From a virus, in the IMG/VR virus record IMGVR_UViG_3300028197_000150, positions 1 to 24,949 of that record: a stretch of DNA of 24,949 nt. One strand, given 5' to 3'. The position numbers and the translations under genes were made by a program. The notes below the pieces were generated by a model, which was given only the letters and a program-made list of their open reading frames with translations, did no database searches and had not been told where the DNA came from. Below are positions 2 to 21,011 of the stretch, one piece after another. How positions within the stretch are numbered: the stretch's first letter is position 1; each line of letters opens with the position of its first letter.

Positions 2-3000
2 ACACCTGAATATCCTAATGGAACATATGCATATTTTGCAACAATTGATGATTCTCTTGCTCAGGGTCAGGGTTCCGTTTTTTCTGGATATAAATTACCA
101 GTTTTTCCATATCTTTTAGGTGAAGCATATCATTCAAAACCCGAACCTTTTAACTTTAATACAGAATCAAATCAAGATGCTTTTAAAATAGAGGAATTTG
201 ATTATTGTAGAAGCACTGATCCATATAATTTAATTGACGGTAATGTTTCATATTCATATATCACAACTCCTAACAATTTAAAACAAAAAGTTGAGGTAAC
301 AGCAGTTACTCCAGGAAAAGTAGAAAAAATCGGTATTGAAACAGGTGGTACTGGTTACAAAGTTGGTGATAAAGTTATATTCAATAACATAAACACTAAA
401 TCTTTTAGCAGTGCTATTGCCAAAGTAGCAACTTTGAAGGGTAAACAAGTTGAAAATATAAGTGTCGCAACGAGTTCAATAACAAACGTTGAGATTTATC
501 CTGCATCAAAAGATAATTATTTTGTTATTGCGGACAATCCCCACAACTTCAAAAAATTTGATAGAGTTGTTATAACTGGTCTATCGACAACTTCATCTAA
601 GATTGGTGGTTTTTACTCAGCAGGGATTTCATCAAATAGATTATCACTGGTTGGAATTGGCACATCTTCGTCTGGAGTAGGGACTGTAGCAGCGACTGGT
701 ATCGTTACTTATTTTAAGGTAAATGGTAATTTAAATTATCCCCAGATTAGAGAAAATGATATACTTGGAATTGGAACAGAGCAAGTTAAGGTTTTAAATG
801 TTGATATTCTAAATTCAAGAATTAGGGTTCTTAGGGGTATTAATGGCGTTGTTGGTGCATCTCATACTATCACAAGCGTTCTTCTTGAAGATCCAAGGAA
901 ACTTACTATCTCGGCAGGTTTTAACACGACTTATGCATCAAGATTGAATAAAGTAATTTATTTTGATCCCTCTGAGAGCGTAGGTCTTGGGACAGCAGTA
1001 GGTGTTGGCATTGGTTCTACGATTGTATTTTCAAATCCTGGTGCTGGACTAACAAGAGTTGATATTCCAACCAAAGGAATTTACATAAAAGACCATGGAT
1101 TACAAACAGGAGATCAATTAACATATTCTCCAGGAAATGGAAATGGTATTGATGTTTTAAATATTGTTGGTGCATCTTCTACTTTAACAAATAATCAAAC
1201 TTTGTTCGCAGCAAAAATTTCAAATGATGTAATTGGAGTTGCCACTGTTAAAGTTGGACTAGGAACAACTGGATCGTTTGTTGGTATTGCATCAACTCAA
1301 CGGAATATAAGCACTCTCTTTTTTACTGGATTTGGAACAGGAGTTTATCATAACTTTAAAACTAATTTCTCAGTTATTACTGCAAAATTAGAGAGAAACA
1401 CTGTCACTGTTCAAACTAAACAAGCGCATGGAATTCAAGGAAGACATGAGGTTGATATTAATGTAAGTCCATCAATTTCAACTACAGTTACAGTTAGGTA
1501 CAATGATTTTAATAGAAGAGTAATTATAAATCCAAAAGATTTTGCCGCTATTGGTATTAATACATCAACAAATACAATTTCTATTAACAATCATGGATTT
1601 GAAACTGGTGAAAAAATTATACACACTGCTTTAATTCCTGCAGGAGGTCTTTCAAATAATAAAATTTATCATATTGTTAAAATTGATGAAAATTCCTTCA
1701 AACTTTCTAATACAGAGTATGAATCAAAATTAGAAAAACCACAAACTGTTGGAATCACTAGTGCTTCATCAGGAACAATTAATTTAATTAATCCAAAAAT
1801 TGATGTTTATAAAGATTCGACAGTAAAATTTGACCTTTCAGACTCCTCCTTGTCATACACAAGTCAAGGATTAAAATATCCTGCATTTGAACTGAATTTA
1901 TATCTAGATTCAGATCATAATAATATTTGGAATACGAGTTTTAAAAATAAAACTTTTGAAGTTTCAAGAACTGGCAGAGCTGGTATTGACAATAATGCCA
2001 GTGTTTCACTTTCAGTAAATTCTTTCATTCCTGAGCAATTATATTACTCGCTTGATGTTGTTGAAGAGAATGATGTCCCTGTGCCCAAGAGTGATATTTT
2101 CATTGATAATACTGTAAAATCAAATAATCAAATTGAGGTTAGAGAAAGTCTTTTTAATGGAAGATTTGCAGTTTCTATTGGTGCTACGAATTCATTTAAT
2201 TATTTCGTTAATAAATTACCAGAAAAAGTTTCTTATGCTGGAACAACATCAAAATTAAATTATACAACAGATTGTACACATACCGATGGTGCAATTAATT
2301 CATTCACGGTGATTGATGGTGGAAGAAATTATAATTCTCTTCCTGGTATCTCGACTATTGTTGGAGTAGGCACAACTGACACAGGTTCAGGTGCAATTAT
2401 ATCAGTTGAAAGTGAATCAATTGGAAAAATTAAAAAAACTAATTTACTTGATATTGGATTTGACTTCCCATCTGACTTAACTTTAAAACCAAGTACAAGT
2501 ATACCTCAAATTGTTGTAATAGAGTCATTAAGCTCTCTTGCAACTGTTGGTATCGTCTCTGCAGGAAGAGGTTACACTGTTGCACCAAAACCAGTAGTCA
2601 TTGACGCAGTAACTAAGAAGCATGTAAAAGAAATTGATCTTGTATATAATTTGGGTGATACAAATGTAAGAATACTTAATAACGCTAAAGGAATTAATAA
2701 TGTAATTCCAACTATTCTTCCAAGTCAAAATAGTAATGGAATTGGTATTGGAACTGTTGGATTTAATACTGTCACTCAAAATGTTACGGTTGGACTTAAC
2801 ACTGGTTTTAGTAGTGGACAAACTTTTCCACTTAGTGTTGGGGATAAAGTTTTAATTGAAGGTGTTAGTATTGGTATTGGATCAACTGGACTTGGTTATA
2901 ACTCAGAAGGTTATGATTATAAATTATTTGAAATTACAGAGGTTGATGAAAACTTAGGTGGAATTGGTAATGTAACTTATAGTATGGTAGGTGATCTTCC

Positions 3001-6000
3001 AAGTGGAGTTCTTACTCCTGGATTATATGATCTTCCAAATTCTGCTGGTGCAAGAATTATTCCAGAAAGATTCTTCCCAACATATAATTCAACTATTAAA
3101 CAAAATCAATTTTTTAATGGAGAGTTTGTTAAGAGTAAATCTGCAGAAGGAATAGTCAATTTCTATGACGAAAAAACTAGCACGTTAAGAATTGAGTCAA
3201 AGGAAACTTTTATAGAAAACGAAATTATTAGAGGATCTGCTTCAAGAACAGAGGGAATTGTAAAATCTGTTAGATCATATGAGTCTTATCTAAAAATGGG
3301 TGTTATATCTAAGACTTTAAGAGGTCATCAAGATGACTCTGGGTTCTTAAACACAAATACTCAAAGAATTCAAGATAGTGATTATTATCAAACATTTGCA
3401 TATTCTCTTAACTCAAGAGTTCCATATGATACTTGGAATGATGTTGTGTCATCAACTAATCATGTACTTGGATATAAAAAGTTTGCAGATTATCAAATTG
3501 AGTCTGTTTCAAGTGTGAATATCGGAATATCTACAGATCAAACATCAATTGATCAAATAATTGAAGCAGTTGGATTTGGTGATTTGAATTGTGTGTATGA
3601 CTTTGATCTTGTAAGTGAAAACTTCTTGAATGTTGCATCAAGAGTTCTATCCACCGAAATAAGATTCTCAAGTAGAATCCTTCAAGATTTTCTTGAGTCC
3701 GTTGGAAATAGAGTTCTACTAATTGATGATGTAAGTAGTCTATTTAATAGTGACCCAAGACCAACTGCTTTTAGTATAGCAAATACATTTGCTCTCAGTT
3801 CAAGAAGAGCAATGAAATACATCACATACGTAAGAGACACTAGATTTACTGCCCAAAGACAATTGATGATTGTTGATTTAATTCATGATGGTTCTCGTGG
3901 ATATATTAATCAATATGGAAGAGTTGAGAGCACTTATGATCAAGGTTCTTTTGATTTTAATATCTCTGGTAGTGATGGACAGTTACAATTTTTCCCAACT
4001 AAGTTTAAGGTGAATGATTATCAGATTGCTGCTATCTCATATAATCTTGACGATAATTTACTCAGTACCGGAGCAACTGCTGTAGGACCATCGATTATTG
4101 AAACTGATAGTGTGTCAATTGGTACTGGAATCGGAGCAACCACGATTGTAAGTATTGCTAGTACTCATAACTCAGTTAAAGTTCTTCTCGAAATAACTCC
4201 TGATATTAGCCGAGCAGAATTTGAATATAACAATCTTAATATTGTTCATAATGGAACAGATATTGAAATTTTAGAATATGGACAATTAACAACCTCTGTT
4301 GGTGATAATGCTGATGTTGGTTTTGGTACTTATAGTGCTTTAATTAACGGTTCAAATCTTGAAGTTATATTCCATCCTAACTCCGATGTTGGTATAGGTA
4401 CAACCGGTGTGGTCAATACTATTCAGGTAGGTTTGGCAACAGCTGGTATTACTGGTATCGGCACCTTTGACATGAAACATGCTAGAATTGAGGCAAGAAC
4501 AACAAGTATTTCTTCTTCAGGAACCCCTGGTATTCATACAATTTCATCATATCCTGATGATTATGATGTTGCATATTTTGTTGCTCAAGTTGCAGACACA
4601 ACAAATAATCAATATCAAATGACCGAAATCATCGTTGTAGATGATTTTGTAAGTGGTGGGAGCAGTTTAGAAACTTATGATACTGAATTTGGTGAGGTAG
4701 GAACTTCAGTTGGTCTTGGAACTTTTGGCACAAGAGTTTCTGCTTCTGGAACTACTGAGTTAATGTTTACACCTACAGCAAGTATTAATACTGTTGTTAA
4801 TGTTTATATGAATGCATTAAGACATCAGGATGATGATAAAGATACAATTGATTTTGATAACGCTGTTATTGAATCTGGATTTGCCACATATGAGGGAACT
4901 GAGAGGGACATTAAGAGAGCGTTTGAATTAAAGCATGAAACTGATAAAATTTTTGAAAGATCCTTTGAAGGTAACGATTCAAGTATTGTTAATTTAACAA
5001 ATAATACGATCACCCTCCCAAATCACTTCTTTGTAAGTGGAGAAAAAATAGAGTACAAGCACGCTGGTGCCGGGTCAACTCAAGCAATCAGTATTGCATC
5101 TACAACATTTGCAGGTATTGGATCTACAACTTTACTTCCAAGTGAAGTATTTGCAGTTAAGGTAACTGATGATAAAATTAAAATTGCTTCAAGTGCTGAA
5201 AACGCTCTCAAACCAATTCCAGAGTCAGTTGACTTAACTAGTGTCGGAATTGGAACTTCTCATAGATTTGTATCTACAAATCAAAATGCTAAAGGAATAA
5301 TAGCAATTGATAATATTATTCAATCTCCCATTGTCTCTACTGCTGTAACGACAACACTTTCAAATACCTTATTTACAACGGATGACACTCTAAAACTAGT
5401 AGGAATCTCCTCAATTAAAGGAGGGGAATTAATTAAAATTAATAATGAAATTATTAGAGTTGATGCAGTTAATATAATAGGAAATGAAAATTCTTTGAGC
5501 GTGAGGAGAGGATGGTTAGGTACTGGAGTTGGTTTTGCTGCTACAGGTAATCTTGTAACTAAAATTGTTGGTAACTACAACATTATTGATAATATTCTGC
5601 ATTTTGTAGACGCTCCTTTCGGAAACAAACCAAAAGGTGGTGATACAAATCCACCAGATGAAAGAGATTTTACAGGTATTACAACTAGTTCTAGTTTCCA
5701 GGGTCGAATATTCTTGAGAAGTGGTGCCACAAATAGCATAAATGACGCTTATCACGAAAATTATATTTTTGACGATCTTTCTCAAGAATTTAATGGTAGT
5801 AAGAAAGAATTTACTCTTAAAATGGATGGATCAAATGTAACTGGAATTGCTACTGAAAATGCTATCATTCTTGTTAATGATACTTTCCAAACACCAGGAG
5901 GAATCACTGGTGTCATTCCTCCAGAATTACAAACAAGACAATATACTCTTGCCGAAAATGCTGGTATTACATCAATTTCATTTGTAGGAGCTGCGGTTTC

Positions 6001-8779
6001 AAATTCGGCAGATGTAAGAACTTCTACTGTACCTGTAGGAGGAGTGATTGTATCCGTAGCATCAAGTGAGGGATTTGGTTATCAACCTCTTGTTGCTGCA
6101 GGGGGAACTGCCAAAGTTTCTGTTGCAGGAACAATTCAATCAATAAGTATTGGAAATAGTGGATCTGGATATAGGGCAGGAATTCAAACTGTCAATGTTG
6201 CAATAAGAACTTCTTCTGTGTCCCGGACTAATATTGTTTCTATTGGAACAGCAGTAATTTCAAACGGAAACATTACTTCAGTAGCTATATCCACTGATAG
6301 AGTATTCTATGCTCCAAGAGATGTATCAAATGTTTTGTATGATAATTCAAGTGGATTAACTACGGTAACAACTTCTACTAATCACGGACTTTCTCATAAC
6401 GATCAAATTACACTTTCTGGAATTGCATTTACTTGCAATTATAGTGGGTCTGGTCCTGTAAATGTATCAAATGCAGTTTATAATAATGTAACTGGCATTA
6501 TGACTGTTACTACATCTGCTCCACATAATTTATCAACCACTGGACAAAAGAGTGACGTTATTCTTACCGGATTAGCATTTACTTGTGGATTGGATGGCGG
6601 ATCTTCAACGCACGTTTATCCAAGAACGACTGACCCTGCATATTGTGGATCTAAAGTAACCGCAGTTAATAGTGCAACTGAATTTGTAATTAATGTTGGC
6701 GTTTCAACTGTTCCAACATTCTATAGTTCTAGTGGAGTTGCTCAACCAGCGTTAATTGCTCCCAGAAATGTAAATAATTCTGCCAGTGGAACAGATCCTG
6801 CTGCAGGAGAAACTAACGTCTTAAAAATTATTAATAATACTTCTTTTGAAGTGAATACTGGAATTTCAACTAGAAAACACTTCTATGCAAGATGTGGTAA
6901 AGTCAATATACCACTAGATGTTGTATTTGATGACCCATTAAGTTACAGCAACATTCCATTAATTTATAGTTCCACTTCTGTTGGTCTCGGAACAGGCGCG
7001 AAAATTGATGTTGTTGTTGGTCAAGGTTCAAGTGTAATTGACTTTAAGATAAGCAACACTGGATTTAGTTATGGTAATAATCAAACATTGACAGTTGCTA
7101 TAGGTGGAACCATCGGTATTCCAACTGACACAACTAAAACATTCAAAGAATTTAAAATTGATATTGATGAAATAGCAAGTGATGAATTTTCTGGATGGTC
7201 TCTCGGTGTTCTACAAGTAATTGATAATGTTGAAAAATTTATTGATGGTACTAGAACAAACTTCCCAATTGAAGTTGATGGTGTAGTCACCTCAATTGCT
7301 GCTGCAAGAGGTTCAAAAATTAACATACAAGATGTTCTTATTATATTTGTAAATAATATTCTTCAAGTTCCCGGTAAAGGTTATATATTTGAGGGTGGTT
7401 CTCAAATTGAATTTACAGAGGCACCAAAGATTGGCGACACTATTGAAATTATTTTCTATAAAGGAACTGGGGACAAAGATGTTGTTCTTAGAGAAATTAT
7501 TGAAACCGTGACGGAGGGTGATACTCTTCAAATTCAAAACAATGATATCTTTACAAATGAAGATAAGAGATCAGTTAATTTTGTATCTGGAACTGATATC
7601 GCAGAAACAAATCCATATTCTGGTCCAGGCAATATTCAGGATACATCTTTATTAAGACCAGTTGTTTGGTGTAGACAAACAGAGGATAAAATTATTAATG
7701 AAAAAGAAGTTGGTAAAGATCGAGAACTTTATGAACCCGTGATAAATCCAACAGCACACATTATTAAAACTGTTGGTGTTGGCGCAACACAAATATTTGT
7801 TGATACATTAAGACCACTCTTTAATATATTCAATGAAGTTGCAACTTTACCAAAAGTAAACACTCTTTCCTTCCAAGATAAAGTTAAATTTATTCCTCAG
7901 GATGATAAAGTTTCTGCTGCTGGAACTGCTATTGTTTCCATAGCAGGCACAATTTCTTCTGTTGCAATATCTACTGGTGGTGTCGGGTATTCAAATGCAT
8001 TGGTAAGTTTTGGTAGCACAAATGGAGTTGGAATTGGAACTACAACCACTGCTCTTGGTACAGTCACAATTGGAACGGCAGGAACAATTACTGGTGTAGC
8101 AATTACTAATCCAGGTCTTGGTTATACTCAAACTAGTCCTCCCCTGGTTTTGTTTAGTCCTCCCACAAGAGGTGTCGAGGAAAACTTTGTAAATTCGTTT
8201 AATGGTGATAATGGGGTAATTGTTGGTTTTGGCACTACATCTGTTGGTATTGGCACCACTCAATTTATTTTTGACTTACACATCCCACTTGATTCTTTCT
8301 TGAGAAATGTTGGTTATAATACTAGCATTGTTTCTACTGCAGTTACTGCAAGTTCACTAAGTTCTGGTGACTATTTTATGATATTTAATTCAAATGTAGG
8401 ATCTGCAGTAACATCTATAACATCGCTTGATACTTCTGGTAATATTGTTGGAGTTGGAACTTCAAATATTGATAATATATACTTTGTTCAAAGCACTGAA
8501 ACTGTATTCAGACCTACAGGAGTTAATTCTGAAGGTGTGGGTATTGGAACCTCTCATATAACCAGAGTATTTGTAAATGTAAGTAACAACTTCTCATATG
8601 GATCAGGTATTCAAACGTCTAATTCATTCGGTGAATTTAGTTGGGGAAGAATTGATCTAACATCTAGATCTAAAGTTACTTCATACACTGCATTTACCTT
8701 AGGAGGTATTGGTGGTATTTCTACCTCTACTTTTGTTCAGAGGTCTAAATCGCTGAAGTCAAAAGATTATGACATTTGA
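2..8779 (+). CDS. Giant baseplate-associated structural protein, C-terminal 2,925 residues (5' end outside window)
   Basis: The frame is open from base 2, so the first internal ATG (434) is not the start and the gene continues upstream. Residues are numbered here from base 2. Residues 1-40 (PEYPNGTYAYF ... FPYLLG) resemble the end of a YHYH domain (family pattern PNGTYHYH ... FPY), with the YHYH residues changed to YAYF. Around residues 1123-1170 is a block (QDSDYYQTFAYSL ... W) and around 1222-1348 a second block (FSSRILQDFLESVGNR ... FFPTKFKVNDY) of types I recall from marine T4-like structural proteins. The rest is Gly/Ser/Thr/Ile-rich beta sequence full of short repeated modules (GG-x-GY, HG-x3-G-D, GIGT). 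No signal peptide, membrane span or enzyme motif is visible. It lies directly before gp8, the place of T4 gene 7 (wedge, about 1,030 aa), so a wedge/baseplate-periphery or host-contact role is inferred. Virion structural role fairly sure; gp7 equivalence unproven. Confidence 0.8.
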   Translation, partial: TPEYPNGTYAYFATIDDSLAQGQGSVFSGYKLPVFPYLLGEAYHSKPEPFNFNTESNQDAFKIEEFDYCRSTDPYNLIDGNVSYSYITTPNNLKQKVEVTAVTPGKVEKIGIETGGTGYKVGDKVIFNNINTKSFSSAIAKVATLKGKQVENISVATSSITNVEIYPASKDNYFVIADNPHNFKKFDRVVITGLSTTSSKIGGFYSAGISSNRLSLVGIGTSSSGVGTVAATGIVTYFKVNGNLNYPQIRENDILGIGTEQVKVLNVDILNSRIRVLRGINGVVGASHTITSVLLEDPRKLTISAGFNTTYASRLNKVIYFDPSESVGLGTAVGVGIGSTIVFSNPGAGLTRVDIPTKGIYIKDHGLQTGDQLTYSPGNGNGIDVLNIVGASSTLTNNQTLFAAKISNDVIGVATVKVGLGTTGSFVGIASTQRNISTLFFTGFGTGVYHNFKTNFSVITAKLERNTVTVQTKQAHGIQGRHEVDINVSPSISTTVTVRYNDFNRRVIINPKDFAAIGINTSTNTISINNHGFETGEKIIHTALIPAGGLSNNKIYHIVKIDENSFKLSNTEYESKLEKPQTVGITSASSGTINLINPKIDVYKDSTVKFDLSDSSLSYTSQGLKYPAFELNLYLDSDHNNIWNTSFKNKTFEVSRTGRAGIDNNASVSLSVNSFIPEQLYYSLDVVEENDVPVPKSDIFIDNTVKSNNQIEVRESLFNGRFAVSIGATNSFNYFVNKLPEKVSYAGTTSKLNYTTDCTHTDGAINSFTVIDGGRNYNSLPGISTIVGVGTTDTGSGAIISVESESIGKIKKTNLLDIGFDFPSDLTLKPSTSIPQIVVIESLSSLATVGIVSAGRGYTVAPKPVVIDAVTKKHVKEIDLVYNLGDTNVRILNNAKGINNVIPTILPSQNSNGIGIGTVGFNTVTQNVTVGLNTGFSSGQTFPLSVGDKVLIEGVSIGIGSTGLGYNSEGYDYKLFEITEVDENLGGIGNVTYSMVGDLPSGVLTPGLYDLPNSAGARIIPERFFPTYNSTIKQNQFFNGEFVKSKSAEGIVNFYDEKTSTLRIESKETFIENEIIRGSASRTEGIVKSVRSYESYLKMGVISKTLRGHQDDSGFLNTNTQRIQDSDYYQTFAYSLNSRVPYDTWNDVVSSTNHVLGYKKFADYQIESVSSVNIGISTDQTSIDQIIEAVGFGDLNCVYDFDLVSENFLNVASRVLSTEIRFSSRILQDFLESVGNRVLLIDDVSSLFNSDPRPTAFSIANTFALSSRRAMKYITYVRDTRFTAQRQLMIVDLIHDGSRGYINQYGRVESTYDQGSFDFNISGSDGQLQFFPTKFKVNDYQIAAISYNLDDNLLSTGATAVGPSIIETDSVSIGTGIGATTIVSIASTHNSVKVLLEITPDISRAEFEYNNLNIVHNGTDIEILEYGQLTTSVGDNADVGFGTYSALINGSNLEVIFHPNSDVGIGTTGVVNTIQVGLATAGITGIGTFDMKHARIEARTTSISSSGTPGIHTISSYPDDYDVAYFVAQVADTTNNQYQMTEIIVVDDFVSGGSSLETYDTEFGEVGTSVGLGTFGTRVSASGTTELMFTPTASINTVVNVYMNALRHQDDDKDTIDFDNAVIESGFATYEGTERDIKRAFELKHETDKIFERSFEGNDSSIVNLTNNTITLPNHFFVSGEKIEYKHAGAGSTQAISIASTTFAGIGSTTLLPSEVFAVKVTDDKIKIASSAENALKPIPESVDLTSVGIGTSHRFVSTNQNAKGIIAIDNIIQSPIVSTAVTTTLSNTLFTTDDTLKLVGISSIKGGELIKINNEIIRVDAVNIIGNENSLSVRRGWLGTGVGFAATGNLVTKIVGNYNIIDNILHFVDAPFGNKPKGGDTNPPDERDFTGITTSSSFQGRIFLRSGATNSINDAYHENYIFDDLSQEFNGSKKEFTLKMDGSNVTGIATENAIILVNDTFQTPGGITGVIPPELQTRQYTLAENAGITSISFVGAAVSNSADVRTSTVPVGGVIVSVASSEGFGYQPLVAAGGTAKVSVAGTIQSISIGNSGSGYRAGIQTVNVAIRTSSVSRTNIVSIGTAVISNGNITSVAISTDRVFYAPRDVSNVLYDNSSGLTTVTTSTNHGLSHNDQITLSGIAFTCNYSGSGPVNVSNAVYNNVTGIMTVTTSAPHNLSTTGQKSDVILTGLAFTCGLDGGSSTHVYPRTTDPAYCGSKVTAVNSATEFVINVGVSTVPTFYSSSGVAQPALIAPRNVNNSASGTDPAAGETNVLKIINNTSFEVNTGISTRKHFYARCGKVNIPLDVVFDDPLSYSNIPLIYSSTSVGLGTGAKIDVVVGQGSSVIDFKISNTGFSYGNNQTLTVAIGGTIGIPTDTTKTFKEFKIDIDEIASDEFSGWSLGVLQVIDNVEKFIDGTRTNFPIEVDGVVTSIAAARGSKINIQDVLIIFVNNILQVPGKGYIFEGGSQIEFTEAPKIGDTIEIIFYKGTGDKDVVLREIIETVTEGDTLQIQNNDIFTNEDKRSVNFVSGTDIAETNPYSGPGNIQDTSLLRPVVWCRQTEDKIINEKEVGKDRELYEPVINPTAHIIKTVGVGATQIFVDTLRPLFNIFNEVATLPKVNTLSFQDKVKFIPQDDKVSAAGTAIVSIAGTISSVAISTGGVGYSNALVSFGSTNGVGIGTTTTALGTVTIGTAGTITGVAITNPGLGYTQTSPPLVLFSPPTRGVEENFVNSFNGDNGVIVGFGTTSVGIGTTQFIFDLHIPLDSFLRNVGYNTSIVSTAVTASSLSSGDYFMIFNSNVGSAVTSITSLDTSGNIVGVGTSNIDNIYFVQSTETVFRPTGVNSEGVGIGTSHITRVFVNVSNNFSYGSGIQTSNSFGEFSWGRIDLTSRSKVTSYTAFTLGGIGGISTSTFVQRSKSLKSKDYDI
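6321..6589 (+). repeat. Imperfect tandem duplication inside the giant structural gene
   Basis: Two adjacent copies of a roughly 42-residue unit are visible, at about 6321-6441 and 6461-6589. Both begin VSN, run through TVTTS and an H(G/N)LS motif, and end LSGIAFTC or LTGLAFTC. The DNA has diverged, so the duplication is not recent. Cysteines are otherwise rare in this protein; each copy ends in Phe-Thr-Cys, and further cysteines follow in YCG and RCG nearby. That pattern suggests a small Cys-containing beta module, although its function is unknown. Confidence 0.75.
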
Positions 8780-8810: not shown

Positions 8811-10364
8811 ATGGCTGCAATTATAACTGATCAAATTAGAATATTAAACGCTAAGAATTTTGTTGCGGGTGTAACTACCTCTACTAATGCATATTATTCT
8901 TTTATTGGATTGACGAATGCAACTGATTACAGTCCAACGTGGGACCAAGATCCCCCCTCACCAAAAGATAGTTTTGATGAGGAAAACCAGTATTGGGACT
9001 CGATGGTTGCTCTAAAGAAAATAAACTCATCTGACGTAAGACAAGTTGTTTCAAAAAGAAATTGGTCTTCGGGAACTACTTATGACATGTATCGTCATGA
9101 TTACAGCAGAATAAAAACTGCTGCTGTTAGTGGTGCTACTAATCTATATGCTTCATCATATTATGTAATTAATAGTGATTTTAGAGTTTATATCTGTATA
9201 CAGAATGGCACCACCCCTGATACCCCTAACGGGTCACCATCTCTTGATGAACCAACACATATTGATTTAGAACCAAGATCAGCAGGAACAAGTGGAGACG
9301 GTTATCTTTGGAAATATCTTTATTCAATTAAACCAAGTGATATTGTAAAATTTGAAGCAACTGCTTTTATGCCAGTACCCCTAAACTGGGAAACTGGCAC
9401 TGAAAATGAACTTGTAAGAAATAATGCGGTAGATGGTTCGATTAAAGTTACAACTATAACTGATAGAGGAGTAGGTATTGGACCTGTTGGCGCTACAAGG
9501 TACGCTAACGTTCCTATTAAAGGTGATGGAACTGGTGCTGAATGTACCATCGTTACATCAAACGATCAAAGAGTTGACTCCATTACTATAACTAATCAAG
9601 GTTCTGGATACACTTTTGGAAATGTAGACTTAGAAGCAGGAAACGTTCCTTCTGGTACGACCATACCTACCTTTGACGTTATCATATCACCAATGGGTGG
9701 TCATGGTAAAGATATCTATAGAGAATTAGGAGCAACTAATGTTCTTCTTTATTCTAGAATTGAAAATGATAATGATAACCCTGATTTTATTACTGGAAAT
9801 CAAATTGCAAGAGTTGGTCTTGTAGAAAATCCAAGAACTACTTCAAATACTTTATTATCGGCTGACAAAGCAAGTGCTGTTGGTGCTTTAAGATTAGCAG
9901 GAGCAGGATACAGTTCTGCTGCTTTTTCTGCCGATTCATACTTCACTCAAACTATATCTACAGGATCAACTGCTCAAGGAAGAGTAATTAGTTATAACCA
10001 AACAACTGGTGTATTGAAGTATTGGCAGGATAGAACACTTGCTGGATTTAATACAGTTGGAACTGCTCAAACCACACCAACTTATGGATTTGATTTGACC
10101 GAGTTTACTTCTTCTCCTGATACAGGTGGTAGTTTGACAATTACTCCAACAACAGGTGTTGATTTACAAATTGATTCAAACTTTAGTGGTATCCAAACGA
10201 CAATAAATAGTAGGACATATAATCTTGGTCTTACTTTTACGGACGGTATTGCACCTGCAGAAGTGAAAAAATATGCAGGAAACATTGTTTATGTTGATAA
10301 TAGACCATCCATAACAAGGTCATCTAACCAAAAAGAAGATATCAAAATTGTTTTGCAGTTCTAA
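8811..10364 (+). CDS. gp8: Baseplate wedge subunit gp8
   Basis: Gp8 is a wedge component that assembles after gp7 onto the gp10-gp7 complex, before gp6 and gp53. Hallmarks of the marine T4-like gp8 family are visible: N-terminal RILNAKNFV (residues 10-18), the block SGDGYLWKYLYSIKPSD (161-177) followed by MPVPLNW, and a C terminus ending NIVYVDNRP ... RSSNQKEDIKIVLQF (491-517). It is 517 residues against 334 in T4. The extra length lies in the middle and holds a GSGY module (264-267), a GAGYSSA segment (364-370) and a G-S-T-A-x-G-R-V segment (385-391) like those in neighbouring giants. The start follows a late promoter with only a weak ribosome-binding site. The next gene begins 6 bases after the stop. 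Identification confident from sequence and position; the role of the insertion is unknown. Confidence 0.88.
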   Translation: MAAIITDQIRILNAKNFVAGVTTSTNAYYSFIGLTNATDYSPTWDQDPPSPKDSFDEENQYWDSMVALKKINSSDVRQVVSKRNWSSGTTYDMYRHDYSRIKTAAVSGATNLYASSYYVINSDFRVYICIQNGTTPDTPNGSPSLDEPTHIDLEPRSAGTSGDGYLWKYLYSIKPSDIVKFEATAFMPVPLNWETGTENELVRNNAVDGSIKVTTITDRGVGIGPVGATRYANVPIKGDGTGAECTIVTSNDQRVDSITITNQGSGYTFGNVDLEAGNVPSGTTIPTFDVIISPMGGHGKDIYRELGATNVLLYSRIENDNDNPDFITGNQIARVGLVENPRTTSNTLLSADKASAVGALRLAGAGYSSAAFSADSYFTQTISTGSTAQGRVISYNQTTGVLKYWQDRTLAGFNTVGTAQTTPTYGFDLTEFTSSPDTGGSLTITPTTGVDLQIDSNFSGIQTTINSRTYNLGLTFTDGIAPAEVKKYAGNIVYVDNRPSITRSSNQKEDIKIVLQF

Positions 10365-10370
10365 AGAATT

Positions 10371-13300
10371 ATGCCACAGCAGACGAACCTCAACGTAGCA
10401 CCATATTTTGATGACTTTGATGCATCTAATGATTTTCATAAGGTGCTGTTTAAACCTGGATATGCTGTCCAGGCTAGAGAATTAACATCACTTCAATCAA
10501 TTTTGCAAAACCAAATCGAAAGATTTGGTCAGCACTTCTTTAAAGAAGGTGAAAAAGTTATACCTGGAAATACTGGGTATAATAGAATTTACAATTGTGT
10601 TCAGTTAGTAAATACGTTTCAAGGAGTCCCAGTTTCTGCCTACGCTGAACAGTTAGAAGGAACTAAAATAACAGGTTTGACCTCTGGTGTAACAGCATAT
10701 GTTGATTCAGTTCTTCTTCCTGAAGACTCTGAAAGAGGAAATCTTACTCTTTATGTTAACTACCTAAACTCAAGCACCGCAAACAATTCGACTGAAGTAT
10801 TCAGTGATGCTGAAGAACTTGCTTGCAATGAGATAATTTCTTCAGGTCTTTTAGGAAACAGCACAATTAGTGCTGGAGCTCCTTTTGGCGCTAGTATATC
10901 AAATAATGCCGGACAAACTGGGTCTTCATTTCATATTCAAGACGGTATTTACTTTATTAGAGGTAACTTTGTAAATGTTGATAGCGAAACTTTAATTCTT
11001 GATCAGTATGGAACAACTCCAAGTTATAGGGTTGGTCTTTTTGTAAATGAAGAAATAATTACTGCAGATTTAGACCAAACTCTTAACGATAATTCCCAAG
11101 GATTTAATAACTATGCTGCACCCGGTGCAGATAGACTTAAAATTAGCACTTCCCTTCTTAAGAAGTCTCTTGATGATTTAGATGATGGATCTTTTGTTGA
11201 ATTGGGAGTTGTAGTAAACGGAGTTTTACGAACAAAAACTAAAAAAACTGGTCTTGGTGGTGGTGTTGGTTATAGTGATATAAATGATATTCTTGCCAGA
11301 AGAACATTTGCTGAATCTGGAGACTACTACGTAACTCCTTTTGACATTACGATGAAGGATTCCCTGAATGATAACAGGGGAAATAATGGTGTGTATAACT
11401 CGGGTCAATTTACTTATGGTGGATCCGCTCCATCTGATGACCTTGCGTTATATAAAGTTTCTGCTGGTAGAGCGTTTGTTAGAGGTTATGATATTGAAAC
11501 TATTAATTCAACATATCTTGATGTTGATAAACCAAGAACTACAAAACTTATTGAAGATCAATCAATAATTTATAATACAGGACCAACACTTAAACTTGAT
11601 AATGTTAATAGAACACCTTCTGTTGGCATTGGTAGCACATATGTTTTAAGTTTGAGGGATGAAAGAATTGGTCCCAACGTTGATGCTAACGGTGCTCCTG
11701 GAAATGAAATTGGTCTAGCAAGAGTCTTTGATTTTAGAATTGAATCTGGTGCATATGATATTGCAAATGCAAATTTAAATCAGTGGGGAATCTCATTATA
11801 TGATGTTCAATCATTTACTACACTAACATTAAATCAAGCAACTAGTTTATCTGTTCCAACGTTTGTTAAGGGTCAAAGAAGTGGTGCAACTGCATTTATT
11901 CGATCTGCAGTATCTAATAGTAAAACAGTTACATTATATGAAACTAAAGGTGAGTTTATTTCTAATGAACCTCTTTTCTTTGATGGTATCTTAAATGGTA
12001 GAATTTCAATTGCTGCAACTGCTCATGGGATTGGTGATGTAAAGTCTGTATTTGGATCAACAGATGGAATTACCGGTATTCATACATTCAGTGCAGACAC
12101 AATTCAATCTGTATCATTTAATGTTGGTGTTGCAACAATTACTCCAAGAGATCAGGGTGGTATCAGCACAGTTAGAAGTACTAACCCACTTTTCCCTGGA
12201 ACTGCTCTTAAGTTAGGTAGTTTGATTCAATATAGCGATCTTGCTGCAGTTGTTGGTGATGATCAAGATCCCGTACTAGGAAGAGTTGTATCTGTTGGAT
12301 CATCTCATGTCAATTTTGTTGGCGTAACAACGGTGACTGGGATTGCAGGTGGTAAATTACCAAATGTAGTAACTAGTATAACTGATTTAAAAGTATTAAC
12401 AACACCTCTTGATCCATCAACCGATAATTCATTATTTACTTCACTTCCAAAAGAAAATATTGAAAGTTTAAATTTGACTGATGCTATATTAACAATTAGA
12501 AAATCACTAAATGTTAATATTGTAAATAATAAATTATCCAGCGCAATTACCGCTGAAGATAATGAAGTATTTTTACCATTTACTCCTACTAGATATTCTC
12601 TTATTAGAGAAGATGGAACTACTGAAGAGCTAACTGCAGATAAATTTACTATTTCCTCCCCTGGCGGAAAAAGCACTCTCCAGATTAATGGTCTTGGAAG
12701 TAATACTGATGGATCTACTTTAATTGCAACTCTTAGAAAGAGAAAACCAAAGGCAAAGATAAAAGTTAGAAATAGAGTTCAGTCAATTATTGTAGATAAA
12801 TCTAAAAATGTTGGTTCTGGTATTGGAACTACAACTTTAAATGATGGTCTTACATACGGAAATTATCCTTTTGGAACAAGAGTTCAGGATGAAACAATTT
12901 CACTTAACACTCCTGATGTAATTGAGGTTCATGGTATCTTTGAATCTACGGATACATCTACTCCTTCGTCACCTACGCTTACTTTACAATCAATTATAAG
13001 TGCTTCATCTACTATTGAAGAGTTTACTATTGGAGAATCTGTTACAGGACAAGATTCTGGTGCCGTTGCAATTATTTCTGAAAAAACCTCAATTACAGAT
13101 TCAAAAATCTCCGTTCTTTACAAAAATGATATTTTGTTTAGAGAGGGTGAAACTATTATATCATCTGAGACAAATATAAATGCAATTGTAAATGCAGCAG
13201 ACGCATCAAGTTTTGATGTATCTTCTAATTTTATCTTCAATAGTGGACAAGAACAAACATTCTATGATTATGGAGTAATCAAAAGAAAATTTAATTCTTC

Positions 13301-16300
13301 AGAACCAAGTAAAAAAATAAAAGTATACTTTAAGAGTGCTTCGTATGAAAGTACTGATGATGGAGATATTACAACGATAGGGTCATATGACAACTTTGAT
13401 TACTCTAGTGAAATTGGTGTAATTGGTGGTTTTAGAAATTCTGACATTATTGATATTAGACCAAGAGTAAGTTCAATCGCAAGTGTTTCTGAGGGAGATA
13501 GATCTCCTCTCGAATTTTTAGGAAGAGTATTTACCGGATCTGGAGATTCATCTAAAAATATTTTAGCATCAGATGAATCACTATTTGTTGATTTCTCTTA
13601 CTATCAAGGAAGAATTGATAGAATTTTTCTGACAAAAGATGGTAGTTTCCAAGTTAAGTATGGTGTTGCCTCAGATAAACCAGAACCACCTCTTGTGGTT
13701 GATGATGCAATTGAAATTTGTTCAATTACCTTACCTCCCTATCTTTACAATACTGCACAAGCTTCACTAAAATTTAATACTCATAAGAGATATCGTATGC
13801 AGGATATCCACAAACTTGAGAATAGAATTAAAAATCTTGAGTATTATACATCACTCTCGATGCTTGAAATTAACACAGCAAATTTATTCGTCTCTGATGC
13901 TGATGGTTTGAATAGATTTAAGTCTGGTTTCTTTGTTGATAACTTTACTTCATTTAAATCACAAGAAGAAGGTCTTCCAATTAAAAATAGCATCGATGCT
14001 GTGAACAAAGAGTTTAGACCAACTCATTATACTAATTCGGTTGATCTTATCCAAGGACCTGTAGTTAATAATGATACAACTGCAGATCTCAATTTTACCG
14101 CAATTGAGGGTAATAATGTAAGAAAGCAAAATGGCGTAATCACTCTTGATTATGCTGAAGTTGAGTGGTTAAAGCAGTCATTTGCTACAAGAACGGAGAG
14201 TGTAACACCATTCTTGATTAGTTTCTGGAAAGGTTCAATGGAACTTACTCCAGCATCTGACACTTGGATTGATACCGCAAGAATGAAAGCAAAAGTAATT
14301 GATGTAGAGGGTGATTTTTCTTCAACGCTTGAATTACTTGCAAGAACTGAAAATATTGACAGACAAACTGGTATGGCACCAATTGTTTGGAATGCATGGG
14401 AAACTAATTGGACTGGATCAACAATCACTCAAACCACTCAAAGGAGAGAAACCACTAGTGGTTCAGAAGTGAACGATTTTAGTAATAGACGGACAATATT
14501 CACAGCAACTAGATCAGTTATTGAAGATACACTTCAAACATCAGTTCAGACTGGTGTTGAGTCCAGATCTGGAAACAGAACTTTCGTATCAGAACAGTTT
14601 GATAGACAATCTGTTGGTGACAGAAGTGTAAGTAGGGATATTATCCCATTTATGAGATCAAGAAACATTGAGTTCGTTTCTAAAAGAATGAAACCTCTTA
14701 CAAGAATGTATGCATTCTTTGATGGAGAAGATGTTACAAGGTTCTGTGTTCCAAAACTTCTTGAAATTAGTATGGTTTCTGGAACATTTACAGTTGGTGA
14801 AACCATAACTGGAAGAATCAATAGAACCGGTTTAGACCAAGACACAGGTAACACTCAAGCAAACATCACATTTAGAGTTGCACAGTCAAACCATAGAGAG
14901 GGACCATATGATGTTCCTACAGCAACGTTTACAGAGGATCCATACAATAATACACCACTTTCTGGATCATACTCATCCACATCAGAAATTTTGAACGTTG
15001 ACACTTTCTCTCTTTCCGCTGAAGCACAAGGTGAATTTTTTGGATTTGTAGCACCAGGAATGGTTCTCACAGGAAAATCAAGTGGAGCACAAGCAACAAT
15101 CAAAGATGTAAGGTTACTTTCTGATCTTGCTGCTAATTTAACTGGTAGTTTCTTTATTCCAGATCCCAATTCAATAACTTTCCCTGAATTTGAAACCGGA
15201 ACCAAGAGTTTCACCCTAATCAACGATCCTGATAATAATCAAGATCTTTGTAACACAATTGCAGAGGAAGCATTTACTTCTGCAGGAACTCTCGAAACCG
15301 TTCAAGAAAATATACTTTCAATTAGAAATGCAAGAGTAGAACGTAGACAAGAATTCCAAGAAAGAAGTGTATCTCGTGATCTTGGAACTCAGATTGTTAG
15401 TTCTGCAGTTATTAGCAACACAGTTACAGTTCAATCAATTACCGGATGGGGTGATCCTCTAGCACAATCTTTCCAAGTGGAAGATGATACTGGTATTTTC
15501 TTAACTAAATGCGATATCTTCTTTGCATCAAAAGATGACATGAATATTCCTGTTGTCATCCAGTTAAGAACCATGGAGAATGGAGTACCAACTCAAAAAA
15601 TTATTCCTTTCTCTGAGATTGTTATTGGTCCTGAAGATGTATCTACTTCTGCTGACGGGTCGATAGCTACCTCAGTTGAATTTAAAACACCTGTGTATCT
15701 TGAAGGTGGGAATAATGCATATTCTATTTGCCTCTTATCTAACTCCACAAAATATAGTGTTTATATTTCTCGTATTGGTGAAAACGATATTCTTTCCGGT
15801 ACGTTTATTTCTAACCAACCATATCTTGGATCACTGTTTAAATCACAAAACGCATCAACATGGGAACCAAGTCAGTGGGAAGATCTTAAGTTTACTCTTT
15901 ATAGAGCAGACTTTATTGATAGTGGTTCTGTTGAGTTCTATAGTCCTGAACTGACTAAAGGTAACGGAATGATTCCAAGACTGATGCCAGATTCACTTGT
16001 TCTTAACTCTAAGAAAATTAAAGTTGGACTTGGAACTACAACCGGTGATACTGGATATGAAATTGGTAATACATTCTTCCAGTTAGGAACTCAAGCAAGT
16101 GGCGATTTGGTTGGTGTTGCAGCAAAAGCAACTGCAATTTCAGTTTCTAATCCGGGAATTGGATACACTCCTTCTACAGGGTCTAGGTCCTTTAATAGTG
16201 TTAATTTAGTTACTATAAGCGGTAATGGAAGAGGTGCAGTAGCAGATGTGTTCGTAAATGCTGGAGCAATTGGTGTTGCAACAATTACGAACGGTGGTTC

Positions 16301-17915
16301 TGGTTATCAAGTAGGTGATGTAGTTGGAATTTCTACGATTGGTATCGCAACCGTTGGTAGAAATTCAAGACTAACAATTACTGGAATTGGAATGACAAGT
16401 GAACTTATCTTTGAAAATGTTCAGGGTGAGTTTGTGACGGGGATTGGCAACACCTTGATGTATGTAAATAGCGCCGGGATTACTACTCAGTTTAACTTTA
16501 AAGACTCTGTGGGTGTTGGAAATACAATTTCTAACATTATTGTTGATACCGATGGTTTGCATATCAAGGTAAATCATAAAAATCATGGTATGTATTTTAG
16601 TGATAACAGAGTTGCTATTAATGATGTTCAACCTGATATTAAACCAACAAAACTTTCTGCAGAATTCTCCATTGGTTCTACTGGTGAAATTTCTGTTAAT
16701 GCTGGAACTAATTTTGGAACTTTTGAAAATGTTGGTGTTGGAACAACAAATGTTGGATTCTTAAAAATTGGTAATGAGATTATTGAATATACTAATGTAA
16801 CTGGAAACGTTATTGGCGGAACTATCACTAGAGGTAATAATCAATCTAACTACCCAATTGGAACACCTGTATTTAAATATGAACTTGGTGGAGTTAACTT
16901 ACATAGAGTTAACAAAACTCATAACTTAAACGATGTAACAGTGAACAATCCAATTACGTTCGATTCATATAATGTAAAACTTGATATGTCAGAAACCTTT
17001 AATACAGGAACTGGCACTAGTGCAGATGATAGAAGTAATGATGTTGGTCTGCCCAAGTTGTTTATGAATAAAACAAAAAATGCTGGTGGATATGATATTA
17101 GAGCATCTCAAAACATGCCATTTGAAATTCTTACACCAATTATTCAAAATGTAACAGTTCGTGGTACTTCACTTAATGCTGAGGTAAGAACAATATCAAG
17201 TCAAAGTATTAGTGGAAATGAAATTCCATTCATCGATGAAGGATTTACTGATCTCAATATTAACACACCTAATTACTTTGACTCTACAAGAATGATTTCG
17301 TCTAAAGTTAATGAGACTGCAAAACTTGATAACATTCCTGGAAACAAATCTTTGAATATGAGAATGTTCCTTGGAACTGTTGATACAAGAGTAAGTCCAG
17401 TGATTGACTCACAAAGAGTTTCTATTATTACAACATCAAATAGAGTTAATAGTGTAGTTACTAATTATGCAACTGATTCAAGAGTAAATACTATTAGAGA
17501 AGATCCTACAGCATGTCAATACATTTCTAAAGAAATTGTATTGGAAAATCCTGCATCTTCACTTAAGATTCTCGTTTCTGCTCATGTTAATGCACTATCT
17601 GATATTAGAGCACTATACGCCATTAGTGAGAAGGAAGGATTCGATCCTATTTTCCAACTATTCCCTGGTTATGATAATTTAAACACTAGAGGTCAAGTAA
17701 TAGACTCTAGTTTGAGTAATGGTCAATCAGATGCTAAAATCATTAGATCCGATAATTATAACTTTGATAGTTTAAATCTTGATTATAAAGAAATGACATT
17801 TACTATCGATCAATTACCTGCATTTAGATCTTATAGAATTAAACTTCTTCTTACATCTACAAGTCAGGTATATGTCCCTAGAGTCAAGGATCTAAGAGTC
17901 ATAGCACTTGCATAA
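10371..17915 (+). CDS. Giant DUF4815-type baseplate/tail structural protein (2,514 aa)
   Basis: The N terminus (NVAPYFDDFD, then VLFKPGYAVQARELTSLQS and QIERFG) is the signature of the DUF4815 family of phage tail/baseplate proteins. Around residue 1133 begins an alpha-helical stretch, RYRMQDIHKLENRIKNLEYY, likely coiled coil and typical of the family. Further on are MKPLTRMYAFFDGEDVTRFC (about residues 1442-1461), a C-terminal half with GG-x-GY and RG modules (16108-16900), and a terminal YRIKLLLTSTSQ ... RVKDLRVIALA segment recurrent in cyanophage structural proteins. The gene follows gp8 by 6 bases and its stop overlaps the next start (TAATG). It replaces T4 genes 9, 10, 11, 12 and wac in position, so a combined peripheral-baseplate and fibre-attachment role is inferred, not shown. 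No enzymatic motif was seen. It is long even for a tail protein. Confidence 0.85.
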   Translation: MPQQTNLNVAPYFDDFDASNDFHKVLFKPGYAVQARELTSLQSILQNQIERFGQHFFKEGEKVIPGNTGYNRIYNCVQLVNTFQGVPVSAYAEQLEGTKITGLTSGVTAYVDSVLLPEDSERGNLTLYVNYLNSSTANNSTEVFSDAEELACNEIISSGLLGNSTISAGAPFGASISNNAGQTGSSFHIQDGIYFIRGNFVNVDSETLILDQYGTTPSYRVGLFVNEEIITADLDQTLNDNSQGFNNYAAPGADRLKISTSLLKKSLDDLDDGSFVELGVVVNGVLRTKTKKTGLGGGVGYSDINDILARRTFAESGDYYVTPFDITMKDSLNDNRGNNGVYNSGQFTYGGSAPSDDLALYKVSAGRAFVRGYDIETINSTYLDVDKPRTTKLIEDQSIIYNTGPTLKLDNVNRTPSVGIGSTYVLSLRDERIGPNVDANGAPGNEIGLARVFDFRIESGAYDIANANLNQWGISLYDVQSFTTLTLNQATSLSVPTFVKGQRSGATAFIRSAVSNSKTVTLYETKGEFISNEPLFFDGILNGRISIAATAHGIGDVKSVFGSTDGITGIHTFSADTIQSVSFNVGVATITPRDQGGISTVRSTNPLFPGTALKLGSLIQYSDLAAVVGDDQDPVLGRVVSVGSSHVNFVGVTTVTGIAGGKLPNVVTSITDLKVLTTPLDPSTDNSLFTSLPKENIESLNLTDAILTIRKSLNVNIVNNKLSSAITAEDNEVFLPFTPTRYSLIREDGTTEELTADKFTISSPGGKSTLQINGLGSNTDGSTLIATLRKRKPKAKIKVRNRVQSIIVDKSKNVGSGIGTTTLNDGLTYGNYPFGTRVQDETISLNTPDVIEVHGIFESTDTSTPSSPTLTLQSIISASSTIEEFTIGESVTGQDSGAVAIISEKTSITDSKISVLYKNDILFREGETIISSETNINAIVNAADASSFDVSSNFIFNSGQEQTFYDYGVIKRKFNSSEPSKKIKVYFKSASYESTDDGDITTIGSYDNFDYSSEIGVIGGFRNSDIIDIRPRVSSIASVSEGDRSPLEFLGRVFTGSGDSSKNILASDESLFVDFSYYQGRIDRIFLTKDGSFQVKYGVASDKPEPPLVVDDAIEICSITLPPYLYNTAQASLKFNTHKRYRMQDIHKLENRIKNLEYYTSLSMLEINTANLFVSDADGLNRFKSGFFVDNFTSFKSQEEGLPIKNSIDAVNKEFRPTHYTNSVDLIQGPVVNNDTTADLNFTAIEGNNVRKQNGVITLDYAEVEWLKQSFATRTESVTPFLISFWKGSMELTPASDTWIDTARMKAKVIDVEGDFSSTLELLARTENIDRQTGMAPIVWNAWETNWTGSTITQTTQRRETTSGSEVNDFSNRRTIFTATRSVIEDTLQTSVQTGVESRSGNRTFVSEQFDRQSVGDRSVSRDIIPFMRSRNIEFVSKRMKPLTRMYAFFDGEDVTRFCVPKLLEISMVSGTFTVGETITGRINRTGLDQDTGNTQANITFRVAQSNHREGPYDVPTATFTEDPYNNTPLSGSYSSTSEILNVDTFSLSAEAQGEFFGFVAPGMVLTGKSSGAQATIKDVRLLSDLAANLTGSFFIPDPNSITFPEFETGTKSFTLINDPDNNQDLCNTIAEEAFTSAGTLETVQENILSIRNARVERRQEFQERSVSRDLGTQIVSSAVISNTVTVQSITGWGDPLAQSFQVEDDTGIFLTKCDIFFASKDDMNIPVVIQLRTMENGVPTQKIIPFSEIVIGPEDVSTSADGSIATSVEFKTPVYLEGGNNAYSICLLSNSTKYSVYISRIGENDILSGTFISNQPYLGSLFKSQNASTWEPSQWEDLKFTLYRADFIDSGSVEFYSPELTKGNGMIPRLMPDSLVLNSKKIKVGLGTTTGDTGYEIGNTFFQLGTQASGDLVGVAAKATAISVSNPGIGYTPSTGSRSFNSVNLVTISGNGRGAVADVFVNAGAIGVATITNGGSGYQVGDVVGISTIGIATVGRNSRLTITGIGMTSELIFENVQGEFVTGIGNTLMYVNSAGITTQFNFKDSVGVGNTISNIIVDTDGLHIKVNHKNHGMYFSDNRVAINDVQPDIKPTKLSAEFSIGSTGEISVNAGTNFGTFENVGVGTTNVGFLKIGNEIIEYTNVTGNVIGGTITRGNNQSNYPIGTPVFKYELGGVNLHRVNKTHNLNDVTVNNPITFDSYNVKLDMSETFNTGTGTSADDRSNDVGLPKLFMNKTKNAGGYDIRASQNMPFEILTPIIQNVTVRGTSLNAEVRTISSQSISGNEIPFIDEGFTDLNINTPNYFDSTRMISSKVNETAKLDNIPGNKSLNMRMFLGTVDTRVSPVIDSQRVSIITTSNRVNSVVTNYATDSRVNTIREDPTACQYISKEIVLENPASSLKILVSAHVNALSDIRALYAISEKEGFDPIFQLFPGYDNLNTRGQVIDSSLSNGQSDAKIIRSDNYNFDSLNLDYKEMTFTIDQLPAFRSYRIKLLLTSTSQVYVPRVKDLRVIALA

Positions 17916-19559: not shown

Positions 19560-21011
19560 ATGGTATTAAATCCTTTTTTTACTCAAGGCACCTCAGCTGA
19601 GCAAAATCTTGTTCAAGATTTGATAAATGAGCAGTTAAGAACTTATGGAGTAGAAATATTCTACATCCCTAGAAAGTTTGTTACGGAAAAATCTATTATC
19701 CGTGAAGTAGTGCAGTCAAAATTTGATATGGCACTTCCACTCGAAGCTTATGTCGATAACTATGATCAATATTCTGGAGCAGGTAATCTTCTCTCTAAAT
19801 TTGGAATTGAATCTAGAGATGAAGTAAGACTTGTAATATCAAGAGAAAGATACGAAAATTATATCTCACCGCTAATCGAAGATCAAGCAAATATTAAATT
19901 ATCCACAAGACCTAAAACCGGTGACTTAATTTGGTTTCCACTTGATGATAGAATTTATGAAATTAAAGATATTGAGTATGCAAAACCATATTACCAACTA
20001 CAAGACCTTTATACATATGAGTTAACTTGTGAACTCTTCCGCTATGAGGATGAAGTTCTTGCGACTGGTATTGATGATATTGATAACAACTTAGTTGGTG
20101 ATGATCCAGATGGAACGACTGAAGACGGGATCAGTACTATTCAAGGTGTAACACATACTCTGACATTAGTTGGTACAGGTGTAACCGCTACTGCTGTTGC
20201 AGGTATTGTTACATCTGGTGGTATTAGATTCATAAACGTTACCAATAGAGGAGGAGGATATGGTGAGATTCCAACGGTAGCAATATCCTCTGCTCCATCT
20301 ACAGGCATAACTGGTATTGCTACTGCCACGATGATTGGAGGTATTAATGTTTGCAATCTTAATTCTAATCCAAGATTACAATCAGTACAAACCGTTCCTA
20401 TCATCAACCCAGGTGCAGGGTACACAGTTGCTCCTAAGATTAAATTCTATGGTGGAAAAGGTGGCACAGGTGCCGCTGCAACCTCAGGAATTGCTGATGG
20501 TACAGTAGGAATTATAACTGTAAGTTCTGGAGGAAGCGGATACACTACGGCACCATCAATTTCACTTTCAAATGAAATATTCTTATCAGGTGTTTCGACA
20601 TCTTCAGCACAGTTAATTACAGTGTTAAATGCTGCGGGGACAGTTACTGAAATAAGAATAACTAATGCAGGTTTAGGGTACAGTGCAGCACCCACAATAA
20701 CTGTAAGTTCCCCTGACATGGATTCAATAGGTGACTTTATATTTAATGAGATTGTAACAGGACAAACAAGTGGAACAACTGCAAGAGTAAGGACATGGAA
20801 CTCATCAACTAATGTACTTGAAGTTGCAAGTGTGAGTGGTGCATTCACGATAGGTGAAGATGTTGTTGGGTCTACTTCAGGATCTTCACACGCATTAAGA
20901 GTAATTGATACTACACCTGATAATGATCCATTCGCAGATAATTTTGAGATTGAAACTGAAGCAGACAGTATTTTAGATTTTTCTGAGCAAAATCCTTTTG
21001 GTATTCCCTAA
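19560..21011 (+). CDS. gp14: Neck protein gp14 with a repeat-rich insertion
   Basis: Gp14 forms the neck with gp13. The N-terminal 175 residues are canonical: NLVQDLINEQLRTYGVEIFY (16-35), KSIIREVVQSKF, and TGDLIWFPLDDRIYEIKDIEY (120-140) followed by YQLQDLYTYELTCELFRYE. The last 30 residues (DPFADNFEIE ... ILDFSEQNPFGIP) also look like a normal gp14 terminus. Between them lie about 270 extra residues, giving 483 against 256 in T4. The insertion holds four GG-x-GY-x3-P modules (about 230, 284, 323, 369) and a gEdvvGStSG-type module (390-440). AGG sits 8 bases before the ATG. Identity confident; the insertion may project from the neck as a decoration, which is inference. Confidence 0.92.
   Translation: MVLNPFFTQGTSAEQNLVQDLINEQLRTYGVEIFYIPRKFVTEKSIIREVVQSKFDMALPLEAYVDNYDQYSGAGNLLSKFGIESRDEVRLVISRERYENYISPLIEDQANIKLSTRPKTGDLIWFPLDDRIYEIKDIEYAKPYYQLQDLYTYELTCELFRYEDEVLATGIDDIDNNLVGDDPDGTTEDGISTIQGVTHTLTLVGTGVTATAVAGIVTSGGIRFINVTNRGGGYGEIPTVAISSAPSTGITGIATATMIGGINVCNLNSNPRLQSVQTVPIINPGAGYTVAPKIKFYGGKGGTGAAATSGIADGTVGIITVSSGGSGYTTAPSISLSNEIFLSGVSTSSAQLITVLNAAGTVTEIRITNAGLGYSAAPTITVSSPDMDSIGDFIFNEIVTGQTSGTTARVRTWNSSTNVLEVASVSGAFTIGEDVVGSTSGSSHALRVIDTTPDNDPFADNFEIETEADSILDFSEQNPFGIP
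20247..20693 (+). repeat. Four GG-x-GY-x3-P protein modules inside gp14
   Basis: Copies read RGGGYGEIP, PGAGYTVAP, SGGSGYTTAP and NAGLGYSAAP, spaced about 54, 40 and 45 residues apart. Between them are hydrophobic beta-type stretches such as GTVGIITVSS. They are repeats at protein level; the DNA copies have diverged. The same module is seen in the two giant proteins and in gp8. Confidence 0.8.

Follow-up and report, generated by a model that had tools for sequence, protein, structure and literature searches.

We suggest that a short repeated module of phage virion proteins, here termed GxGY after its central motif, is a promiscuous β add-on that was anciently acquired and has since been vertically kept, and that it may act in display and weak binding; we give this reading roughly two chances in three. 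The module was analyzed in a window of 24,949 bases (IMG/VR record IMGVR_UViG_3300028197_000150), which is part of the genome of a cyanophage in the Kyanoviridae; among named phages it is closest to Synechococcus phage Bellamy, with gp14 proteins that are 88% identical. The window carries, in order, gp7 (5' end missing), gp8, a DUF4815/'VrlC' protein, two small genes, gp13, gp14, gp15, the small terminase and a fibre-like gene. A sequence-only reading of this DNA had proposed that one GG-x-GY module is shared by a 'giant protein', which is gp7, the baseplate wedge initiator, and by gp8, the DUF4815 protein and gp14, and a copy is indeed present at each of the proposed sites, three of them weak.

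A repeated module in gp7, gp8, gp14 and the DUF4815 protein

An iterated profile, seeded with the four gp14 copies and applied at E<0.01 with reversed phage proteins as decoys, recovers 174 copies in 17 phages and finds the module in all four of these genes, with the consensus VIANGTISSITITNGGSGYTSPPTVTISGG. Neither the reversed phage proteins nor 800 shuffled window proteins gave any match at that threshold, and with PHROG profiles the cross-gene E-values fall to 1e-10 and lower; the copies are homologous. The bare motif behaves likewise: against composition shuffles, G.GY occurs 8 times versus 1.0 in gp7, 3 versus 0.14 in gp8, 3 versus 0.56 in the DUF4815 protein and 4 versus 0.17 in gp14, where the longer form G.GY...P is found 4 times versus 0.01.

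All copies in the window lie on the plus strand. The neck protein gp14 (19560-21011; PF11649, E 6e-26) holds four, with E-values from 4e-11 to 3e-7: copy 1 at 20190..20327 (anchor residue 231, E 2.7e-7; AlphaFold strands 211-217, 221-229 and 239-242), copy 2 at 20352..20489 (anchor 285, E 2.2e-7; strands 274-278, 281-283 and 294-297), copy 3 at 20472..20609 (anchor 325, E 1.5e-7; strands 306-312, 315-323 and 334-337) and copy 4 at 20610..20747 (anchor 371, E 4.3e-11; strands 351-356, 362-369 and 379-382). In gp8 (8811-10364; PF09215, E 1.7e-15) the copy is at 9540..9677 (anchor 264, E 1.4e-7), and a degenerate second copy directly ahead of it, at about 9441-9524, is suggested by modeling; the 'SGDGY' at 9294 was rejected as a copy, being a conserved gp8 core motif also present in T4 gp8. 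Six copies with E-values from 1.4e-7 to 4e-3 are found in gp7 (2-8779, its 5' end lost at the window edge; phrog_2885, E=0), at 287..424 (anchor 116, E 4.8e-5), 2261..2398 (anchor 774, E 6e-4), 2504..2641 (anchor 855, E 3.2e-3), 6101..6238 (anchor 2054, E 1.1e-4), 7919..8056 (anchor 2660, E 4.4e-3) and 8054..8191 (anchor 2705, E 1.4e-7). The DUF4815 protein (10371-17915) has one copy at 16236..16373 (anchor 1976, E 7.2e-5) and a weak one at 16095..16232 (anchor 1929, E 0.18). This last (near 16155) is one of the three weak sites, the others being the gp7 copy near 2321, which reads GGRNY and not GY, and a gp7 site near 6071 that is under the threshold.

The modules are additions to recognizable T4-type cores. 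Both gp8 and gp14 are orthologues of their T4 counterparts and match them in sequence and fold: the gp14 core β-barrel matches T4 gp14 (phmmer against PDB 1.5e-20, Foldseek 1e-7), and the two termini of gp8 align with those of T4 gp8 (Foldseek to 1n7z, 2e-7). In contrast to T4, which has none, the window proteins hold some 200-290 residues of inserted modules. The contention that T4 gp8 and gp14 are too short to accommodate such insertions is sound, since T4 gp8 lacks about 200 of the residues present in the window, T4 gp14 (256 residues) is alignable only with residues 2-166 of the window protein, and a scan of the whole T4 genome found no GxGY module. In gp14, the array separates the neck core from a conserved C-terminal motif; gp14 of Sinorhizobium phage phiM7 (217 residues) consists of that core and that motif, without the array. 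Size also differs for gp7, which has 4,067 residues in Bellamy, 1,032 codons in T4 and 1,016 residues in pelagiphage HTVC008M.

The copies also share a predicted strand register, in keeping with the expectation of a common fold. In the AlphaFold model of gp14 (52 sequences; mean predicted local distance difference test score, pLDDT, of 72, and 85-93 across most of the array), strands run from about -20 to -14, -10 to -2 and +8 to +12 relative to the anchor glycine of each copy, copy 2 being shorter. The gp8 model (overall pLDDT 60) scores 71-88 in the module region, with strands at residues 241-249, 255-265 and 270-272, or -23 to -15, -9 to +1 and +6 to +8. A common fold across genes is thus what the models predict, with a unit of about 45 residues that would comprise two antiparallel strands, followed by the G-x-G-Y turn and then a short third strand.

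Searches of Pfam, NCBIfam and PDB sequences returned no family covering the module, and we found no paper that names the motif; it may possibly bear a name elsewhere, as InterPro, CDD and ECOD were outside the search. Foldseek of the array against PDB gave no significant match, and the likeness to the eIF2-gamma and SelB β-barrels that it did return (E 0.05 and worse) was judged to be chance. When compared with predicted structures of viral proteins, the gp14 model also resembles gp7 of Bellamy, a P22 gp10-like protein and a number of neck and baseplate proteins from phages, but TM-scores are low, and these matches are therefore not assignable to the array alone. A further predicted-fold match to the gp14 model is BFVD A0A3G5AH46, from the giant virus Sylvanvirus (E 9e-6, 23% identity).

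Reach across virion proteins and possible function

The module extends well past the neck and baseplate. It occurs in at least 17 PHROG families, and every annotated one is a head, connector or tail family. When six sites outside the four genes were looked up in the complete genomes of P-SSM2, S-CAM9, Bellamy and S-SSM7, all six proved to be in virion genes: the gp5 tail lysozyme (S-CAM9, P-SSM2), tail fibres (P-SSM2, S-CAM9, S-SSM7) and a virion structural protein (Bellamy). The tail sheaths of Alux-21 and Bas97, which infect E. coli, and of Burkholderia phage Mica contain about 80 residues of module at a point where the homologue in Vibrio phage MAR is uninterrupted and contains none. Stenotrophomonas phage IME-SM1 and Acidovorax phage ACP17, whose sheaths are T4-like, have the module at a second, separate sheath site. 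That sheath homologues exist with and without the module is evidence of real insertion. Bacterial genomes encode further carriers, among them tail tube proteins of two kinds, a major capsid protein, a capsid cement protein, a sheath of prophage type, a sheath from Nostoc and a β-helix protein; the tail tube, capsid, cement and sheath genes are read as those of prophages, unrelated to the cyanophages. GxGY is also present in proteins from Verrucomicrobia and other phyla whose N-termini were judged by eye to be of the secretion type. The notion of a virion-wide decoration domain is apt, and the module reaches well beyond neighboring genes, to gp5 and tail fibres as well as to sheath, tail tube, capsid and cement.

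Three individual loci may be recorded here. The contractile sheath protein of Nostoc foliaceum (L448:2864-4963) has six GxGY copies. A T4-like gp8 that holds two modules is encoded at L452:3431-4762, on a contig filed as Muricauda (metagenome-assembled genome TMED12) that probably stems from a phage and was binned there. The fibre-like protein at L020:2912-6406 resembles the window open reading frame (ORF) at 22484-24463 in its N-terminus, but its C-terminus differs and carries two GxGY copies, which suggests C-terminal swapping.

The closest known parallel is with the immunoglobulin (Ig)-like domains of phages, which occur in tail fibres, baseplate wedge initiators, major tail and major head components and decoration proteins (PMC7602432). 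Like these domains (Hoc, pb10, BIG2 in major tail and coat proteins), GxGY is a β add-on found in several virion protein classes, present or absent between homologues and dispensable for assembly cores. Unlike them, it is a repeat of some 45 residues with a G-x-G-Y turn, for which AlphaFold predicts about three strands per unit where the Ig sandwich has 7-9; neither the consensus nor the S-CAM9 array has an Ig-family match in Pfam at E<=1, and no Ig fold appears among significant structure matches. Since it fails the Ig sequence test, we would describe GxGY as working like the Ig-like domains, and not file it as one. The additional domains of tail sheaths offer a second parallel: in the passages cited here, they are beta-rich and inserted in the sheath core, away from the tube (PMC9230969), although mostly Ig-like, and those passages do not name GxGY repeats.

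We posit that the module is inserted at exposed loops or at the ends of virion proteins, usually as tandem copies and with the assembly cores left undisturbed, and that the arrays would project from neck, baseplate and sheath. GxGY probably decorates the particle surface, where the arrays could be spacers or low-affinity binders that keep the virion near the host envelope. Phage Ig-like domains have been proposed to bind surface carbohydrates weakly (as quoted within PMC9230969), and by analogy GxGY may contribute to surface adhesion. A candidate lectin segment, LamG-like by profile, lies within the gp14 array of S-SSM7 (see below).

The strongest competing explanation, to which we assign a substantial but lesser chance, is that the repeats are structural spacers or cement, which lengthen or stiffen virion parts and lock neighboring subunits together without any binding of the host. 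The strict conservation of slots in gp7, gp8 and gp14 across the Kyanoviridae would suit such a role, as would the position of the gp14 array, which follows the neck core, precedes the conserved C-terminal motif and lies in the region through which T4 gp14 contacts gp15 (PMC12270204). Part of the array could hence serve assembly, and this contact makes a structural role for that part a serious rival. On the other hand, gp14 copy number ranges from 0 to 9 and sheath homologues function without the module, so that assembly in several lineages can do without it, and GxGY also occurs in putatively secreted bacterial proteins. We accordingly rank display with weak adhesion somewhat above a spacer or cement role. 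Besides the gp15 contact, several considerations weigh against a displayed, weakly binding add-on: the gp8 and whole-gp14 models are modest in overall confidence (pLDDT 60 and 72), no PDB entry matches the module by sequence or by fold, gp7 copies are often weak and single, and the case for surface exposure draws on insertion behavior and on the cited portion of the sheath add-on literature (PMC9230969). In addition, the two-copy consensus query favors tandem matches, which biases the bacterial list toward tandem, near-consensus sequences; for the same reason, that heterologous insertions usually have two copies was not used as evidence.

In a bolder form of the adhesion proposal, GxGY would give tailed phages a second general module for surface adhesion that owes nothing to the Ig-like domains. 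It would cover capsid, cement, tube, sheath, neck, baseplate and fibres in lineages that are not related, be exchanged with secreted proteins of bacteria and, through a dense neck and baseplate cover, set the first host contact in cyanomyoviruses. We regard this as speculative and rather unlikely to hold in full.

Inheritance of the copies and further shared modules

GxGY probably spread between genes long ago and is now inherited gene by gene. Its slots are conserved across the compared phages, at about residues 220, 270, 310 and 355 of gp14, 265 of gp8, and 750, 790, 1120, 1450, 2200, 3400 and 3800-3900 of gp7. Among 197 copies, the nearest neighbor in a distant phage belongs to the same gene in 81% of cases versus 43% after shuffling, and mapping the gene labels onto a tree of 150 copies takes 23 changes versus 57 when they are shuffled; as this tree is built on 34 columns and most of its forks are unresolved, only the label counts were taken from it. 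We envisage that an ancestor of the marine T4-like phages gained copies in gp7, gp8 and, in the Kyanoviridae, gp14, which would then have been inherited with the gene.

Copy number in gp14 has changed mostly by tandem duplication. Exactly four copies are present in 203 of 235 complete gp14 sequences, with extremes of 0 and 9 and protein lengths from 217 to 1109 residues. In expanded arrays, the leading copies correspond for the most part to slots 1-3 in other phages and the added ones mostly to slot 4, and growth has therefore proceeded chiefly by tandem duplication inside the gene. A minority of the extra copies are nearest to gp7 slots, and import from gp7 was considered as the main source of expanded arrays and rejected, given that most extra copies resemble slot 4. 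Some of the longest gp14 proteins (762-1,109 residues) have a segment that interrupts the array: S-SSM7 (L087:34704-36989), L225:5424-8750 and L250:8988-12053. The S-SSM7 segment is laminin-G-like by profile (residues 323-448, Laminin_G_3, E 7.6e-6, 26.6 bits, under the cut-off of 27.6) and those in L225 and L250 look similar by eye; the window gp14 has no Laminin_G_3 match in Pfam.

Domain shuffling in phage structural proteins is already well described (PMC10684548), and the sequence-only reading had called plausible a mobile or recombining module spreading among neighboring virion genes, with clustering of copies by phage and not by gene as the pattern in its support. Part of that proposal stands, in that one homologous module is found in many virion genes, with evidence of real insertion in the sheath; current spread among the neighboring genes of one phage is not supported. 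Besides the strong grouping by gene, likeness between genes of the same phage is not in excess: the best different-gene match falls in the same phage 15 times versus 12.7 expected, and in the same clade 44 versus 44.1. Copies that keep to their gene and slot, with no same-phage excess, are largely the pattern that this earlier reading had itself set against recombination. What ongoing recombination has in its favor is one plausible cross-gene event that involves another module, described below, and we consider it improbable overall.

Three more module families (B, C and D) are common to virion genes, each with no decoy matches. Module B (EIITGSSSGATARVVSWN..., 'SGATA' type) is found in gp14, the DUF4815 protein, gp8 and gp7; in the window it closes the gp14 array at 20748..20879 (plus strand, E 6.6e-18) and occurs in the DUF4815 protein at 11862-11981 and 13035-13169 (E 8.9e-13 and 4.4e-10). 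Module D (...LKIGDEIIKYTSVTGNTLTVTRGVDGTTAASH, 'RGxxGTTAAxH' type) occupies the C-terminus of gp15 (21805..21954, plus strand, E 1.1e-14), with other copies in gp7 (743-877 and 5390-5530, E 3.7e-10 and 2.3e-11) and in the DUF4815 protein (16740-16841, E 1.2e-7). Module C (ITIPNHGFKTGDKVVY..., 'NHGFxTGD' type) occurs in gp7 (5009..5257 on the plus strand, E 1.4e-18, with further copies at 1079-1336 and 1577-1777) and in gp13 of the S-CAM9 group. There, 21 gp13 sequences have a module C insert of about 90 residues that in eight phages is nearest to one particular gp7 slot; the loci are S-CAM9 gp13 (L088:31337-32455) and 20 other gp13 ORFs, among them L190, L195 and L209. This insert is the strongest putative case of a genuine transfer between genes. 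The transfer would be old, however, because identity to gp7 is about 28-38% and the insert is common to all 21 sequences, and it therefore speaks little for recombination that is still under way.

Convergence or low complexity, by which short Gly/Tyr/Thr-rich β repeats would come to look alike without common ancestry, might be entertained for units that are short, rich in Gly, Thr and Ser and average 28% column identity, but is very improbable in the face of 174 real matches versus 0 decoys, the PHROG-profile E-values between genes and the same predicted strand register.

The core of the DUF4815 protein is homologous to that of Staphylococcus phage phi812 (ORF65, PDB 9euf; E 2e-42), but the phi812 protein has 1,152 residues and the window protein 2,514, with modules A, B and D in the cyanophage version. 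In S-SKS1 (L091, NC_020851; 5976-13332 and 14900-27283), the DUF4815 and gp7 genes are broken into several ORFs, mostly unannotated, either through sequencing errors or through real frameshifts.

Implications for marine T4-like phages

Virion-wide add-on domains have been known mainly as Ig-like, and GxGY is a separate family of repeats that is distributed in the same way. It accounts for part of the extra length of neck and baseplate proteins in marine T4-like phages, and a single profile helps to annotate the 'structural proteins' of viruses that are very abundant in the ocean. It also provides a test case for how modules spread, with old insertions followed by vertical inheritance and tandem changes in copy number. 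If GxGY binds glycans, it would offer a direct handle on cyanophage adsorption.

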